In this document: piece after piece, positions 1 to 39,818 of the stretch
Layout: each line of letters starts with the position of its first letter
Position numbering within the stretch: position 1 is the first letter of the stretch
NCBI GenBank assembly: GCA_028278405.1
Contig: JANQEK010000006.1
Location: 1 to 64,000 of the forward strand
DNA from: Nitrospinaceae bacterium
GTDB taxonomy: Bacteria > Nitrospinota > Nitrospinia > Nitrospinales > Nitrospinaceae
DNA length: 64,000 bases
Direction of reading: 5' to 3'
Position numbers and translations under genes: made by a program
The notes under the pieces: model-generated
Databases searched by the model: none
What the model was told of the DNA's origin: nothing
What the model saw: the letters and a program-made list of their open reading frames with translations, nothing else

Positions 1-168
1 GCCCGCTGGCGACCGGTCCATTCTACCCTTGGGCGGTGCGACTCCGGGTAACCTGAAGTCCGCCTCCAAGCCAGTGGATGAACGGCTGTCGATGAGATAG
101 AATCTATTTCATCACTTGATCTAGTATCATGGGCAAGGGAACCTTCGGGTTCCCTTGCTTTTTTTTTG
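1..168 (+). ncRNA. 3' part of an unidentified structured RNA (left-truncated), ending in a strong intrinsic terminator
   Basis: No ORF. Several complementary segments: CTGGC/GCCAG, TACCC/GGGTA, GGGCGG/CCGCCT, and hairpin GATGAGATAG-AATC-CTATTTCATC overlap region. A GC-rich terminator with T-run follows. GGATGAACGGCTGTCG loosely resembles the 3' region of bacterial RNase P RNA, but the canonical ACAGAAnCCGGCTTA is not present. Confidence 0.3.
133..168 (+). terminator. Rho-independent terminator
   Basis: Perfect 11-bp stem GCAAGGGAACC-TTCG-GGTTCCCTTGC followed by TTTTTTTTT. Confidence 0.9.
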
Positions 169-290
169 GAAATAGGTCTTACTCATGGAATTTATTGAGA
201 TTTTTCAGAGTATTCTGTTGGTGCAACTTTGGCCATTTTAAGCTATCATTTTCTTGTAGAGCCGAGCGGTTGACCCTCCCGTAGAACGTC

Positions 291-1535
291 TTGAAAATTT
301 CAAAAGCCATGTGGAAAGCAATAAGAAACGCATTGATTTTATTAATACTATTGTTGTCATGGACGACGGTCGCTGTGGGTGCTTCCTTGAAGAGCGGGGA
401 GATGAGCTCCCTGGCCAGTCAGGGGCGTCCTCTGTTTCTCCATTATTGCGCTGCCTGCCACGGTGTAACCGGTGATGGGGATGGATACAATGCGGAGCAA
501 TTGGACAAGGAACCGGCTGAGTTGTCCAGCAGGAAATTCATTGCCAAGAAGAAGGACAGCCAAATCTACCGGGTGATTAAACTGGGGGGGCATGGGGTCA
601 AGAAGTCTCATTTAATGCCGGTATTCGGCCATACATTGTCTGAGAAGGAGATATGGTCTCTGGTCGCATATGTCCGCTATCTGGCCGGAGATTGGGATCA
701 TCCGATTACCCTTCCCGATAATGTCTCCAGTACCCGGCCCGCCAGTCCACCGCTGGAGCATGATTCATTAAAGGTCTTCAGGAACTGGTATTCCAAGAAG
801 GGCAAGGATCAATCCCTCATCGATCAGGGAGAAAAATTATTCCGGAAAAAGAAAAGCTGTTTCGCCTGTCATCAACTCGAGGACGAAGGCGGGCTGGTGG
901 GGCCGGATCTTTCGCGTGCAGGCTTTTCATACACTCCCGAATGGATTTTTACCTGGATCGGGAACCCTCAAAGCATCAAACCGAAATCCAAAATGCCCAA
1001 TTTGGGATTGAACAATAAAGAATGCCGAAAGATAACGGCTTTTTTGGCCAGCCTCAAAGGCGAGGGAATAAAAAAGAAGTGGCGTGATTATCTGGGCTCT
1101 TCCGGCGATCCAATTCAAGGAAAGAAGCTGTTTTTCGATTCAGACGGAAAGGCCAACTGTGGAAAATGCCATACAGTCAATGGGCAGGGAGGAAAGGTCG
1201 GGCCTCAATTAAGTTTTGTGGGTACCAGCCGTACGAAGGAATTTATGTTGGAATCCATTTTAAATCCAAAGGCGGTCATCACTTCCGGTTATTCCTCCAT
1301 ATTGATCCTTACCAAAAAGGGAAAGTTTATTACCGGTGTGAAGAGAAATGAAGACGATTCTTCAATTGACCTGGTCAATAAGGAAGGAAACGTCCTGCAC
1401 ATTTCCAAAGATGAGATCAAGAAATATAAAACTCAGAAAATATCCATCATGCCCGGAAACTTTAAGGATATTCTCACTAAAGATGAAGTCCGCCATCTGC
1501 TGGCATACCTGGGTACCCTCAAAATTTCCAACTGA
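291..1535 (+). CDS. Periplasmic triheme c-type cytochrome; C-terminal domain resembles the 'putative heme-binding domain' cytochromes
   Basis: TTG start at 291 (ATG alternative at 309), signal peptide, three CxxCH motifs (CAACH, CFACH, CGKCH). Confidence 0.85.
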   Translation: MKISKAMWKAIRNALILLILLLSWTTVAVGASLKSGEMSSLASQGRPLFLHYCAACHGVTGDGDGYNAEQLDKEPAELSSRKFIAKKKDSQIYRVIKLGGHGVKKSHLMPVFGHTLSEKEIWSLVAYVRYLAGDWDHPITLPDNVSSTRPASPPLEHDSLKVFRNWYSKKGKDQSLIDQGEKLFRKKKSCFACHQLEDEGGLVGPDLSRAGFSYTPEWIFTWIGNPQSIKPKSKMPNLGLNNKECRKITAFLASLKGEGIKKKWRDYLGSSGDPIQGKKLFFDSDGKANCGKCHTVNGQGGKVGPQLSFVGTSRTKEFMLESILNPKAVITSGYSSILILTKKGKFITGVKRNEDDSSIDLVNKEGNVLHISKDEIKKYKTQKISIMPGNFKDILTKDEVRHLLAYLGTLKISN

Positions 1536-1540
1536 TTTAA

Positions 1541-3538
1541 CTATTTCAGAGTCATCTTGTACCAAGTAGAAATCGACTTCTTGGTTCCCGTCTCCTTGAC
1601 GTTTCCATCCCAGGCATTGATGGCAATGAGTACCGTCGCGCCTGCCTCAAATTGAACGTCATTGCTCTTGTCCGAAGTGTTCAGCGTCCGCTTCATGATC
1701 AGTTGATATTGGCCGTACTTGAAGACAACTTTAGAGTGTACGAGTTGGCTGCCGGGTCGGTGTTCGCCCTGTTGTTCGAGGCCTTGAGCATATCTTTCGA
1801 TCGTTTTGTTGGAGCCGCTGGTCCATTGCCATAGGTTCACTGGATGATCTTTGTCGCCATTTAAAAAATAGGGTAAAGATCCATCCTTTGATTTGCCGGC
1901 CGGAAATTGAATGGCGATGGCATCAGGAAACTTCTGTGGCTTTGGATCTTCTGCAGGTTTTTCCGCTTCCGCGTCACCCGGTTCCGGTTGTAATTCAGGG
2001 GGCAGCGGGGGAGGGGGTGATTCTTGTACTTCCGCGGTGGTTTTCAAAATGGGATCGAAAGTGGGATCATCCCATCGTAATTTAAAGGCAATTTCATCCC
2101 CATTGTGGATTGCCTGCAGCCAGACATTATCAACAGTGGGATAAAAGTTTTTCTCTGCTTCAAGGATTTGGCCCCCCAGTGGAATGAAATAAGAGGGGGC
2201 GGCTTCCCAGGCACGTGCTTCCAGGTTCAAGGTTATCGGCTCTTCGACCTTTACAGACCTGATGTTCCTGGCAACAGAAGGATTCAGAAGTTCCGAGTCT
2301 GGGGGGATGTCGATTTCAAAAATAGTTTCTTCGACTCCGAATAAAGTCCTCAGGTAGTACACAATGTCCCAAATATCCCTGTCCTTGTAAATCCGCTCGG
2401 AATGCCGCGGCATCGCAGTTGTGGACAATCCCGTGCGGATCGTGAGGAAAAGGTCTTTTGGAGTACTTCCTCTTCTGAACATCCAGGGTTTGGTGAGGTT
2501 TCTCGGCCGGATTGCATCCGATTCGATATCGACATTGCGTTTGGTTGATTCTCCATCGCTCCGACCTTCCAGTCCGTGGCAGCCAGAGCAGGTTGCATTG
2601 AAAAACTTTTTTCCTCGTTCGAGACTTTGCTGATCGAACGGGGGCGGGGATTCAACCCGGGTAATTTTGTGTGTTTTTTTTCTTTTTTGAAACTTGGCGA
2701 ATTTTTTGGAAAGTGTCTTTAGGTAAAGTACGAGACTTTTTAAATCGACTTCTGGGAAATGCTTCCAGGAAGGCATGGTGGTGCCGGGCATGCCTCGAAC
2801 CAGCATTTGGTACAAATCGTCATCGGTTGGAATTTTTCCAAAAGGAGTAGTTCGGAATTTGTATTGTCCTTTGATGAAATTTCGCGGTCGGGGACTGGAG
2901 TAAAAAGCTGAAATTCCTTTCCCGCTCCCATCTTCCGCGTGGCAGTAAACACATTTTTCCATATAAACGAGCTTGCCTCGCTCGACAGAAGGTTCGGCGG
3001 GAGGGTCGGGAACTGCTGGATGCTTCACGTTTTCGAAGATAAACAAGATAACTTTCCACGCGTCATCCGCCGAAAGAGTTTCCTCCCATGCAGGCATGGC
3101 CGATTCCCAGGGATGAAGTTTCTGAGGCAATCCTTTTCCACCTTTCATGATTCTCCAGAAAAAATAGGCCTCCGATTTTCCCTGGGCAATTGCTTTATGG
3201 AAATCGACTGGTGGTGGAGAAAATCGCTTGCCAAACAGGCCGCGACCGTCCATCAAATCTCCATGACATAAAAAACAATGTTTAAAATAATTTTCGCCAC
3301 CATCTTTAATGTGTTTCTTTAGGTTTTCTGAGTCTTGGCGAAAGGGGTTTGCCAGGTTTTTCAGTTGGACTTTCTGGTCCTTGACTTGGATTGCATCCGG
3401 CAGGTCGGAAGCCTTGGGTGAGTTGAATGCAAGGAGGGAAGATATGGGGGACACGCCGCAGATCAAACCCGCGATGAGGAATATCTTCAACGATTTTCGG
3501 ATAAGCAATCCTGTGTTGACTGTTTCTATGATCCGCAC
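1541..3538 (-). CDS. Triheme cytochrome c with C-terminal ethylbenzene-dehydrogenase/DMSO-reductase-family gamma-subunit-like heme-binding domain
   Basis: Signal peptide; CFLCH, CVYCH, CSGCH motifs; C-terminal ~240 aa (ARAWEAAPSYFIPLGGQ...VFKYGQYQLIMKRTLNT...AINAWDGN) has EB_dh-like features. Confidence 0.8.
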   Translation of the reverse strand: MRIIETVNTGLLIRKSLKIFLIAGLICGVSPISSLLAFNSPKASDLPDAIQVKDQKVQLKNLANPFRQDSENLKKHIKDGGENYFKHCFLCHGDLMDGRGLFGKRFSPPPVDFHKAIAQGKSEAYFFWRIMKGGKGLPQKLHPWESAMPAWEETLSADDAWKVILFIFENVKHPAVPDPPAEPSVERGKLVYMEKCVYCHAEDGSGKGISAFYSSPRPRNFIKGQYKFRTTPFGKIPTDDDLYQMLVRGMPGTTMPSWKHFPEVDLKSLVLYLKTLSKKFAKFQKRKKTHKITRVESPPPFDQQSLERGKKFFNATCSGCHGLEGRSDGESTKRNVDIESDAIRPRNLTKPWMFRRGSTPKDLFLTIRTGLSTTAMPRHSERIYKDRDIWDIVYYLRTLFGVEETIFEIDIPPDSELLNPSVARNIRSVKVEEPITLNLEARAWEAAPSYFIPLGGQILEAEKNFYPTVDNVWLQAIHNGDEIAFKLRWDDPTFDPILKTTAEVQESPPPPLPPELQPEPGDAEAEKPAEDPKPQKFPDAIAIQFPAGKSKDGSLPYFLNGDKDHPVNLWQWTSGSNKTIERYAQGLEQQGEHRPGSQLVHSKVVFKYGQYQLIMKRTLNTSDKSNDVQFEAGATVLIAINAWDGNVKETGTKKSISTWYKMTLK

Positions 3539-3553
3539 GGAGACAAGTAGCGT

Positions 3554-4393
3554 TTAATGGATACTTCCCGGAACCCGGGCGTCCTTCTTAATTCGTCCGG
3601 ATTTGATCGTTTCGTAAAAGGGCCGGATAACGGCATCACCGTCAAATTCGAAATCCAGGTTGATCGTTTCACCTGCAGAAACCGTAATTTGTTTGGATTG
3701 AGAAGGCATCAGAAAATGCCACGCGGTGATCTTGTATTCACCGGGAGGGATGTTGTCTATTTTATAGTTTCCGTCGACTTTCGTTTGAAAGTAATAAGGG
3801 TTTTGAACCCTATAACCCCAGGTTTGCATAAACTCGTGCATACCGCAAATCATCTGAAAGATTTTATATCTCTTTTTGAAAACTACTTTACCCTCGGAAA
3901 TTTCTTCCGCCGGGATGGGGATGTTCAGAAGGATTTTGCCCTGTTTTTTCTGGTAAACCTGGCTGTTGTGCATGACCGCATCCTGATTATCGACAAAGAA
4001 CGTTCCCCCCTGCGGTATCACATTGACTACCGGAGTGAATTTACAATTTTCGGAGAGAATATTGATTGGTTTTTGAGGGAAAGGTTTGCCGGCATCTACA
4101 TGTTCCAAAGTCACCACAACGTCCTTCATGCCTCGTTGATCATCCGTAATAAAATCGAACAGGACGCGATTCATATTATCGTCAGTATCGACTTCGGCAC
4201 ACATGTCAAGGTTGGGGAACAAGACCAGATGATACACCCGGGGTTGAGGGGTATCCCCTTTTAAAGTAGTCTTTCCCTGTATTGTTCCGCCGTTTTTAAC
4301 TTCTATCTCCTGATAGGCCCAAACCTGTGTGCTCAGGACGCATATGATCAAGAAAGTCAGTGCTAATTGAATAAACAGTTTGGGCTTTTGCAT
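3554..4393 (-). CDS. Cupredoxin-like protein with C-terminal carboxypeptidase-regulatory-like domain
   Basis: Signal peptide; His (MHNSQVY) plus C-x2-H-x2-M (CGMHEFM); GNYKIDNIPPGEYKITAWH regulatory-like domain. Confidence 0.75.
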   Translation of the reverse strand: MQKPKLFIQLALTFLIICVLSTQVWAYQEIEVKNGGTIQGKTTLKGDTPQPRVYHLVLFPNLDMCAEVDTDDNMNRVLFDFITDDQRGMKDVVVTLEHVDAGKPFPQKPINILSENCKFTPVVNVIPQGGTFFVDNQDAVMHNSQVYQKKQGKILLNIPIPAEEISEGKVVFKKRYKIFQMICGMHEFMQTWGYRVQNPYYFQTKVDGNYKIDNIPPGEYKITAWHFLMPSQSKQITVSAGETINLDFEFDGDAVIRPFYETIKSGRIKKDARVPGSIH

Positions 4394-4431
4394 GTTATTT
4401 ACTCCCTAATCATTAAGATTGGTGTCGCCAT

Positions 4432-5124
4432 CTATTTTTGTGATACTTGATTTGCCAATTCCAGGAAATTAAAGTCTTCGCGGGTGACATCTTCCCCGAC
4501 TTCGATTTTTCGGGATTCCTCACCCAGTGATTCATGCCATATTTTGAGTGTGTATTTTCCCGGCGGCACGTTTTTGATTTCAAAAGAGCCGTTGCTCTCA
4601 GTGATCGCAAAATAAGAATGAGGCGTAACCACAATGTAGGCTACCATCCAGCTATGAAGATCGCAGGAAACCTTGATGACCTCCGGCTCCTCCATTTCCT
4701 GAGTATAATCCTGATTCGGTAAAAACATGATATTAATCGGGTCATTATCAAACGAATACGTATGAATATTATGGTTGATCGGGTCACTGGTCAAAATTTT
4801 CAACTCAGAGCCTTGTGGCATGGCCAGAACATGGGGAGAATAGGAGCATTTTTTCTGGTCGATCGTATAGGTCCCCGGTTCGCTTTTTAGTTTTTTCGCC
4901 TGTTTGCCTTCCAGCCACACCACCACATTCTTAACTTTTTGATTTTCAAGTATTAATGATTCGCCTTGGATTTCCGGTCCACACACTTTTTTGAACTTCC
5001 CTGTTTTGTGCATGACCGGAGGCGGGGCTTTTCCGGTGAACTTGACTTCTCCCTTAATGGTTCCTGCATGAACTGGAAAGGTCATAACCAGGAGCGAAAA
5101 TGTGGCAAAAATCAATTTAAACAT
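4432..5124 (-). CDS. Cupredoxin-like protein with carboxypeptidase-regulatory-like domain (paralog of 3554..4393)
   Basis: Signal peptide; INHNIHTY and CDLHSWM copper-site-like motifs; GSFEIKNVPPGKYTLKIWH. Confidence 0.75.
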   Translation of the reverse strand: MFKLIFATFSLLVMTFPVHAGTIKGEVKFTGKAPPPVMHKTGKFKKVCGPEIQGESLILENQKVKNVVVWLEGKQAKKLKSEPGTYTIDQKKCSYSPHVLAMPQGSELKILTSDPINHNIHTYSFDNDPINIMFLPNQDYTQEMEEPEVIKVSCDLHSWMVAYIVVTPHSYFAITESNGSFEIKNVPPGKYTLKIWHESLGEESRKIEVGEDVTREDFNFLELANQVSQK

Positions 5125-5159
5125 CTCAATAATTAAAAGGTTTAGAGATTTCTGCGGGA

Positions 5160-5188
5160 ATCATATATCAAACCGGTTCCAAGTTCAA
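5160..5188 (-). promoter_or_regulatory. Candidate sigma70-type promoter for the 5124->1541 redox operon
   Basis: On the minus strand TTGAAC-17 bp-TATGAT, about 36 bp upstream of the start codon; AACCGGTT palindrome in the spacer. Confidence 0.4.
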
Positions 5189-5431
5189 GTGAGACTTAAA
5201 CCGTTAAAAGTGGAGTATCAGGCTAAATCTCTCACCTCAATTAATTAGATTTTAACCACTTCTACTGTAGTGCTCCCAGATGAATTTCCGATTAACGGGA
5301 AATGAAAAAAGGTTAATCAATCGGTTGGCATATTTAGCTTTCCAAAGCTATCTGCCTATTTTAAAATAAGCAGGAATTACCTTATTTTAGACCTCGATAT
5401 TTGAGGTTTTATTCCCCAAAAGAGGCCCGGA

Positions 5432-5917
5432 ATGAGAAAAATTATCCCCCTTTTCCTGATCACCATTCTTCTGGTTCATCCAGTGTGGGCGGCGAGCCCG
5501 AAGCCGGGCGATTCAGCTCCCGATTTTTCTTTGACCGCCATTACTGGCGGGAAGCACACGTTGAGCGATTTAAAGGGCAAAGTGGTTTTGGTGGGCATGT
5601 TTCATATTTGTGTGCCTTGCATGAACCAGGCAATGGAATTTGAAAAGGTTCGAATGTCACTCAAAACAGATAAGCTGGTCATTCTTGGAATCAATACCAG
5701 TGGTGATTCCAAGAAAGCGGTCGAGGACTACCTGGCAGGTTTTCCCAAGTCCGTGAAGTTTCCATACTTGCTGGACCCAGACCAGACTGTTCATAAAGCC
5801 TATACCCAGAGGGATATGCCCACTGTTTTGATTATTGATTCAAAAGGGATTCTCAGAGCCCGAAGTCCTTCGGTCGGGGCCGATCAGTTGGTTCCCTATC
5901 TCAAAAAATTACTCTAA
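5432..5917 (+). CDS. Secreted TlpA/AhpC-TSA-type thioredoxin-fold protein
   Basis: Signal peptide; PGDSAPDFSLTAITGGKHTLSDLKGKVVLVGMFHICVPCMNQ with CxxC; thioredoxin-fold C-terminus. Confidence 0.85.
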   Translation: MRKIIPLFLITILLVHPVWAASPKPGDSAPDFSLTAITGGKHTLSDLKGKVVLVGMFHICVPCMNQAMEFEKVRMSLKTDKLVILGINTSGDSKKAVEDYLAGFPKSVKFPYLLDPDQTVHKAYTQRDMPTVLIIDSKGILRARSPSVGADQLVPYLKKLL

Positions 5918-6008
5918 GTTTTATCCTCAAGTTGTGCAGACTGTGTAAAAAAGCGGTTTAGAAACCGTATATCCTTTTGTCCTTTCCAAAGTATTTCTTC
6001 AAGAGTCC

Positions 6009-19799: not shown

Positions 19800-21194
19800 C
19801 TAGAAGGGCTTTAAGTCCCCAATGTAGCGTTCTGAGTTGTCAAAGTGTTGTAGAACTTCCACCGGATCGTCAATCCTGGGCCCACCGTAAAATTTTTCAT
19901 TACTGTCAAACCAGGTATTGAATCGATACCCCTTGGTATCGTCGTGGTAGAGTTTTCGCCGAGCGTCTTCTCCTCTGAACGTAAAATTGAATTGTGTCGT
20001 TTTCCCCGCTTCGATCGTGATGGTTCCTCGTTGTATCGGAACGAAGGGGTGCCAGGCGGTCACTTCGTAAGTTCCGGGCGGTATGTTTTCAATATTGAAG
20101 TTTCCTTCAGCATCACTGATCACAAAATAAGGGTTGTCGATAATATAGCCTCGGGTTTGGAGAAAAGGGTGCAAGTTGCATTTCAATATAAACTCTGGCG
20201 CACCTGGTTTTATGAAAGCGGAGCGGACCTGCGAATTGACCGCCAAGACGCTTTTATTGCTGGTCTGGTTCCTGTGGGAACCGTAAATTTCATAGGTGGC
20301 AATTTCATGTTTGATGGGATCGGTATTTTCAATCAGAATGTCTTCCCCGTTCTTGATGCCGATCACATATTTGTCCACGTGGCACCGCTTGAGTTGTAAA
20401 GATTGCATTTTGCGCGGAAAGGGTTTCCCTTTTTTGACACCCTGGATAGCGATAATCGTGTCTTGCAATCCACCTTTCTTCGAGACGGTAAAATCATACA
20501 AAATCCGATGGCCCTTGCCGTCCGACATCCGGGAGCAGAACTCGATATTCGGGGCGTGAATCAGGTGGAACGCTCTCGCTTTAGGCACCAAGCCGGTCAG
20601 GTTAACGCGGCCGGTCAGCGTTCCCCCTTGGTCGACAGACATGATTTTATAATCGAGCGGAACCTGGTCATGAAGTTGCTTTGCCAGTTTGTAATTTCTT
20701 TTATACAGTTTGTCGACCTGATCGCGGGCCTTTTGATCCCTGCCCAGCTGATGGTAAATCAGTCCCAGATCGTAATCGGCGTGAACCATACGTGAATCTT
20801 TTTTGAGAGCGGTTTCGATTTCCTGTGCAGCGTCTTTCAGGAGGTTGATTTTGGCGAGAGAAAGACCGCGAAAGTACCGGAAATTGGCGCTGTCATAGCC
20901 CATTTCCAAAGCCTTCTGGAATGCGAGAAGGGCTTCCTTGTGACGATTGACCCGGCTGAGAGCTACCCCCATATTGGCCTGAGCTACGGAATCATCGGGT
21001 TTTTCCTGCAGGGCTTTTTCAAATTCAAGAATTGCTCCATTCCAGTCTCCCTTTTGGCTCAGAATTTTGGCTTGGTGGAGAGCTTCCCCGGCAGTCCCCG
21101 CAATGGAAGTAACGGGGGTGCTGATCGCAAACCATGCAGCCCAAAAAACAACGGAGAGCGTGCCACATTTGACAATTTTATTGGAAATATACAT
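19800..21194 (-). CDS. TPR protein fused to cupredoxin-like and carboxypeptidase-regulatory-like domains
   Basis: TPR repeats in aa ~35-165, then GGTLTGRVNLTG..., IKHEIATY, CNLHPFL, GNFNIENIPPGTYEVTAWH; homologous to the 3554 and 4432 genes. Confidence 0.75.
   Translation of the reverse strand: MYISNKIVKCGTLSVVFWAAWFAISTPVTSIAGTAGEALHQAKILSQKGDWNGAILEFEKALQEKPDDSVAQANMGVALSRVNRHKEALLAFQKALEMGYDSANFRYFRGLSLAKINLLKDAAQEIETALKKDSRMVHADYDLGLIYHQLGRDQKARDQVDKLYKRNYKLAKQLHDQVPLDYKIMSVDQGGTLTGRVNLTGLVPKARAFHLIHAPNIEFCSRMSDGKGHRILYDFTVSKKGGLQDTIIAIQGVKKGKPFPRKMQSLQLKRCHVDKYVIGIKNGEDILIENTDPIKHEIATYEIYGSHRNQTSNKSVLAVNSQVRSAFIKPGAPEFILKCNLHPFLQTRGYIIDNPYFVISDAEGNFNIENIPPGTYEVTAWHPFVPIQRGTITIEAGKTTQFNFTFRGEDARRKLYHDDTKGYRFNTWFDSNEKFYGGPRIDDPVEVLQHFDNSERYIGDLKPF

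Positions 21195-37071: not shown

Positions 37072-39818
<2,747 letters not shown>

Follow-up and report, generated by a model that had tools for sequence, protein, structure and literature searches.

In this work, we focus on a block of four genes (positions 291 to 5124) within a 64,000-nucleotide stretch of DNA, hereafter the window, which forms the start of contig C1 (JANQEK010000006.1) of a 3.16-Mb Nitrospinales genome whose named relatives are metagenome-assembled genomes (MAGs) of Nitrospinaceae and Nitrospina. The block comprises two genes for copper-type proteins (cupA and cupB), one for a three-heme protein with a domain related to the gamma subunit of nitrite oxidoreductase (triEB), and one for a triheme cytochrome (cytA). 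We propose that it probably encodes a soluble, high-potential periplasmic relay leading from nitrite oxidoreductase (NXR) to a bd-like oxidase complex. The host is very probably a nitrite oxidiser, since an NXR-alpha gene is found on contig C25 of the same genome together with its own EB_dh gene. The original prediction for this locus, made from the bare DNA, had seen in it a dedicated electron-transfer module in which copper carriers and a multiheme protein exchange electrons. This idea is supported by the order-wide linkage of the genes and by their invariant copper and heme ligands, but it had overlooked the EB_dh domain and the nitrite-oxidiser context, as well as the homology of the components to a bd-like-oxidase cluster and to the anammox cytochrome Kustd1711.

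The element around which our reading is built is triEB (1541 to 3538, minus strand), which encodes an exported alternative NxrC of 665 amino acids, with three class-I heme-c domains of predicted His/Met ligation followed by a C-terminal EB_dh domain. The protein had been described as a multiheme cytochrome, which is right as to the three hemes, but it is not a simple triheme cytochrome, residues ~442-655 being an NXR-gamma-like domain. In particular, residues 442 to 655 match the EB_dh family (PF09459, the heme-b subunit of type II DMSO reductases) with E=9.5e-19, and the TIGR03477 model gives 97.8 bits, below its cut-off of 169.9. Every CxxCH motif and the distal Met of each heme are invariant in 38 sequences. 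The best solved-structure match of residues 185 to 401 is a Kuenenia diheme cytochrome (6h5l chain B, 226 amino acids, E=2e-38), which resembles triEB in its diheme module only, as that chain carries no EB_dh domain. The EB_dh fold family is shared with the NXR gamma subunit NxrC (Kuenenia 7b04_C) and with the ethylbenzene dehydrogenase gamma subunit (2ivf_C), from which triEB differs by its extra c-hemes, by the absence of adjacent nxrAB genes and by the lack of the canonical heme-b Met.

The likely origin of this architecture is seen on another contig of the same genome, C16, where the gene for a CydA-like oxidase is accompanied by those for two membrane cytochromes, one diheme and one monoheme, and for a diheme alternative NxrC with a C-terminal anchor. 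Residues 47 to 166 of triEB align to the membrane monoheme cytochrome (36%, E=4e-26) and residues 177 to 664 to the adjacent diheme alternative NxrC (E=4e-43), this pair lying downstream of the CydA-like oxidase gene. In MAGs of Chloroflexi and Chromatiales, too, a CydA-like gene is followed by this pair, as unfused genes. Moreover, triEB stops at the EB_dh domain, whereas its homologues on C16 and in Chloroflexi and Chromatiales run on into a hydrophobic helix. Because its two parts align to adjacent C16 subunits, and because the split pair recurs in Chloroflexi and Chromatiales, we interpret triEB as most likely a fused relative, without anchors, of the pair formed by the membrane monoheme cytochrome and the diheme alternative NxrC. 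A phylogenetic tree places the triEB proteins, the bd-cluster proteins and those of Chloroflexi and Chromatiales apart from the remaining paralogues with a diheme-EB_dh architecture, at moderate support (83/89). In the Chloroflexi MAGs, a cupA-like gene follows the genes for the oxidase, the cytochrome and the EB_dh protein, and in one of these MAGs COX2-COX1 follow as well. The diheme-c and EB_dh architecture of the bd-cluster alternative NxrC is thus homologous to that of triEB, but the published alt_NxrC_2 of Nitrospira moscoviensis (PMC6606698) is membrane-bound and diheme, whereas triEB has three hemes, no anchor, a linkage to two type-1-copper genes and an Asn in place of the heme-b Met.

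This last substitution is relevant to the role of the EB_dh domain. The axial ligands of heme b in the Kuenenia NXR-C are Met155 and Lys305 (PMC8387239). In the alignment, the equivalent of Met155 is Asn560 in 38/38 Nitrospinales triEB sequences, and the equivalent of Lys305 is K, R or M. Both Met and Lys are kept in NxrC and in four other EB_dh paralogues of the same genome; the alternative NxrC of C16 likewise lacks the Met. Since the Met155 position is Asn560 in all the triEB sequences, the EB_dh domain of triEB presumably does not hold heme b as NXR does. A few observations can be added on related genes. Three further diheme-EB_dh proteins of the host genome (L084-L086, on C14 and C37) retain the heme-b Met and Lys, and one contig of a Methyloligella MAG (L050) bears two diheme-EB_dh genes, separate from each other and close to monoheme cytochromes. 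One triEB orthologue (G042:C37:455668-457581) contains a single in-frame TAA in the matched stretch, from an assembly error or a broken gene. A tblastn search of plasmids with triEB returned partial matches only, at <60% identity and none reaching 80% coverage.

Upstream of triEB, on the same strand, lie cupB (3554 to 4393, 279 amino acids) and cupA (4432 to 5124, 230 amino acids). That both would be exported cupredoxin-like proteins had been anticipated, and indeed each has an N-terminal hydrophobic signal-like segment and an amicyanin-type copper ligand set, His...Cys-x2-His-x2-Met. The ligands of cupA (H118/C154/H157/M160) are invariant in 25/25 sequences and those of cupB (H142/C183/H186/M189) in 39/39, as is one Cys pair (C65/C117 in cupB) in all of these sequences. 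Both proteins are therefore predicted, from sequence, to bind type-1 copper. They are 26% identical to each other (E=1.4e-15), and in both a C-terminal carboxypeptidase-regulatory-like beta domain follows the copper part; it is the only domain matched in a Pfam scan, in which no cupredoxin family was hit. The structural model of cupA (pLDDT 87.6) has an amicyanin/plastocyanin-like fold; Foldseek matches it to amicyanin, CuA domains and the Nitrosopumilus purple cupredoxin at E~1e-6, with E=1.3e-6 and TMt 0.71 for amicyanin, as befits a cupredoxin beta-sandwich. The cupB model is of moderate quality (pLDDT 77.7) and matches amicyanin and 5fc9 at TMt ~0.6 but E~0.02. Thus, cupA and cupB share the ligand loop with amicyanin, and cupA also shares its predicted beta-sandwich with amicyanin and the Nitrosopumilus purple cupredoxin (5fc9), but both differ from these proteins by the added C-terminal domain, the invariant Cys pair and the lack of a Pfam cupredoxin match. 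A methylamine-dehydrogenase system was considered on account of the amicyanin-like loop and set aside, as the gene list of the window showed no recognisable genes for it. Other cupB relatives occur in the genome: two more cupB-like proteins carry the C-x2-H-x2-M motif, one on C32 (L101 8455-9782), adjoining a monoheme cytochrome c gene, and one on C47 (L102 286-1101). In the window itself, a 464-amino-acid TPR protein with a carboxypeptidase-regulatory-like domain (19800-21194, minus strand) is 32% identical to cupB; a simple scan found no C-x2-H-x2-M in it.

The fourth gene, cytA (291 to 1535, plus strand), converges with triEB and encodes an exported triheme c-type cytochrome of 414 amino acids, in which all hemes are predicted to be His/Met-ligated. 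The three CxxCH motifs and the distal Met of each heme are invariant in 21/21 sequences, so that cytA and triEB are indeed two proteins with three CxxCH each, as had been claimed. Residues 230 to 413 of cytA align to residues 116 to 316 of Kustd1711 (7zs0, E=2.7e-42) through the heme domain and the nose domain (the C-terminal ~180 amino acids). Kustd1711 is a +350 mV diheme cytochrome whose gene belongs to the anammox nxr cluster, which also contains genes for blue copper proteins; the heme domains of Kustd1711 are described as SoxX-like, and its Ca2+ site, at the heme propionates, uses main-chain carbonyls (PMC11791136). The C-terminal heme domain with its nose insertion is common to both proteins, but cytA is longer and carries a third heme domain at its N-terminus, where Kustd1711 has two in all. 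The TIGR02603 model gives 140 bits on cytA, and its score with the SoxX model exceeds the cut-off; neither label was retained. Around the block, no genes of a Sox system were recognised, and since the heme domains of Kustd1711 are themselves SoxX-like, the SoxX score reflects the fold rather than a Sox function.

The arrangement of these genes is conserved across the order and is not due to chance. We compared 32 other Nitrospinales loci containing triEB: cupB is directly upstream of triEB on the same strand in 29, cupA is upstream in 16, and cytA is convergent on the opposite strand in 20/20 loci where it is present. The pairing of cupB with triEB is thus the most constant feature, cytA and cupA being less strictly conserved. 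Of the three loci that lack cupB, two lie at the end of a contig and the third belongs to a single-contig genome (G054). With stringent cut-offs, triEB and cupB are both found in 28/28 good-quality Nitrospinales genomes and in 0/13 other genomes of the class. The NxrA orthologues are likewise confined to the order, with 89-100% identity across most of it and a single exception, a 56% match in G046; yet they are often absent from MAGs, which is a known binning problem (PMC10839748). A lack of co-conservation or of copper had been set beforehand as able to refute the proposed module; judged by sequence, neither occurred, the outcome being an order-wide cupB-triEB linkage with cytA convergent wherever it is present, and invariant copper ligands. 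On the other side of cupA, a divergent gene for a TlpA/ResA-type thiol-disulfide redoxin with a CVPC motif (5432 to 5917, plus strand), possibly a copper or heme maturation factor, is adjacent in 27/32 loci.

We can then consider how these components might work together. Electrons from nitrite would leave NXR at the heme b of NxrC, pass to the predicted type-1 copper proteins cupA and cupB and to the three c-hemes of triEB, and arrive at the bd-like (CydA-type) oxidase complex, whose genes lie on another contig; cytA would carry electrons in parallel or further downstream. Devoid of the canonical ligand of heme b, the EB_dh domain of triEB would be used in docking and would not itself be a redox step. 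The six predicted His/Met c-hemes and the two predicted type-1 copper sites suggest a high potential fitting nitrite oxidation. The CydA-like gene is on C16 and not beside triEB, but such adjacency does hold for the Chloroflexi and Chromatiales homologues. No heme-copper oxidase (COX1) was detected in the host genome, in which the bd-like family is the only oxidase family found.

Several observations weigh against this scheme. The nxrAB genes are not beside the block, and as the Nitrospinales are a single clade, the co-occurrence of the block with NXR is supportive but not independent proof of function. Neither are the four genes an obligate unit, since several genera lack cupA and cytA at this locus, and the single contig of G054 carries triEB without cupB. 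The cupB model has no PDB match at E<=0.001, and with a tree support of only 83/89 the exact sister of triEB is not fixed.

The main rival to the oxidase route is reverse electron transport, in which the block would pass electrons from NXR or cytochrome c towards a bd-like complex that resembles complex III or reduces quinone, in support of CO2 fixation and not of O2 reduction. Such a role has been proposed for bd-like clusters (PMC3578206, PMC6606698), of which triEB is a subunit homologue, but hemes that are all His/Met-ligated and type-1 copper suggest high potentials, which suit nitrite oxidation and carriers on the O2 side. The only oxidase homologue found is bd-like, and even though the direction of electron flow cannot be set by sequence, we regard reverse transport as unlikely.

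More improbable in our view is a side branch that would feed electrons into a different acceptor of the periplasm, for instance the copper nitrite reductase NirK, a multicopper oxidase or a cytochrome peroxidase, to deal with nitrite/NO or oxidative stress. Cupredoxins are classic donors of NirK. Nitrospina does carry nirK (PMC3578206), but no enzyme of this kind was recognised beside the block in the loci listed, whose neighbours were not exhaustively annotated, and the Chloroflexi relatives sit with oxidases. We give slightly less credit still to a role of cupA and cupB in the storage, delivery or assembly of copper for another copper enzyme, with the cytochromes as unrelated neighbours. The recurrent TlpA-like redoxin next to cupA would fit such a role, as TlpA/Sco proteins load CuA sites. 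However, the host genome has no COX1-type oxidase, the copper proteins have the full Cys/His/His/Met type-1 set of electron carriers and not chaperone motifs, and it is with triEB that cupB is most constantly paired.

Some of these components are partly known. Alternative NxrCs with 1-3 heme-c sites have been reported in Nitrospina gracilis, and a conserved NXR-related gene set includes two cupredoxin-like proteins (PMC3578206); the bd-like/alternative NxrC cluster has also been described (PMC6606698, PMC8026999). As in triEB, heme-c domains are combined with an EB_dh domain in the alt_NxrC proteins of that nitrite oxidiser, and triEB probably corresponds to a soluble one among them. The block had not been recognised as a named system, which is fair for the linked cassette but not for its parts, already published as 'alternative NxrC' and 'cupredoxin-like'. 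In the papers that we consulted on these systems, we found no description of the order-wide cupA-cupB-triEB-cytA linkage, of the fusion origin, of the Asn substitution or of the link between cytA and Kustd1711.

These genes bear on a recognised gap: the structure of the Kuenenia NXR leaves its electron acceptor unidentified (PMC8387239), and the composition of NXR and the role of the alternative NxrCs in Nitrospina and Nitrospira are unresolved (PMC3578206, PMC6606698). The block supplies four concrete, order-wide candidates for the electron route from NXR to the oxidase in Nitrospina-type bacteria. For N. gracilis, a survey based on folds arrived at just three copper genes, two of them nirK and the third an oxidase gene (PMC4585252); if N. 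gracilis also has the block, such surveys overlook these proteins, and marine nitrite oxidation may demand more copper than has been estimated. We tentatively suggest a broader view, in which the dominant marine nitrite oxidisers might connect their periplasmic NXR to a cytochrome-bd-like oxidase by a dedicated soluble copper-heme relay, built from two fused membrane subunits of the bd-like-oxidase complex and a recycled, heme-b-less NXR-gamma docking domain, copper then being an unrecognised requirement of marine nitrite oxidation.

As for the fine structure of the locus, the intergenic spacing that had been noted is exact, with 5 bp between the convergent cytochrome genes and 15 bp and 38 bp between the minus-strand genes. 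Promoter and terminator scans of positions 1-6000 gave counts near the shuffled expectation, so we build no claim of a transcription unit on them; Rfam and tRNA scans gave no match in or near the block. The sole scan feature that stood out is a strong terminator-like hairpin at 131-160 (13 pairs, with a T-run), at the start of the contig, and bases 1-130, which have no Rfam match, may represent the end of a structured RNA. Outside the four-gene block, the window also encodes a predicted exported protein of 370 amino acids with two CxxCH motifs (38706-39818, minus strand).

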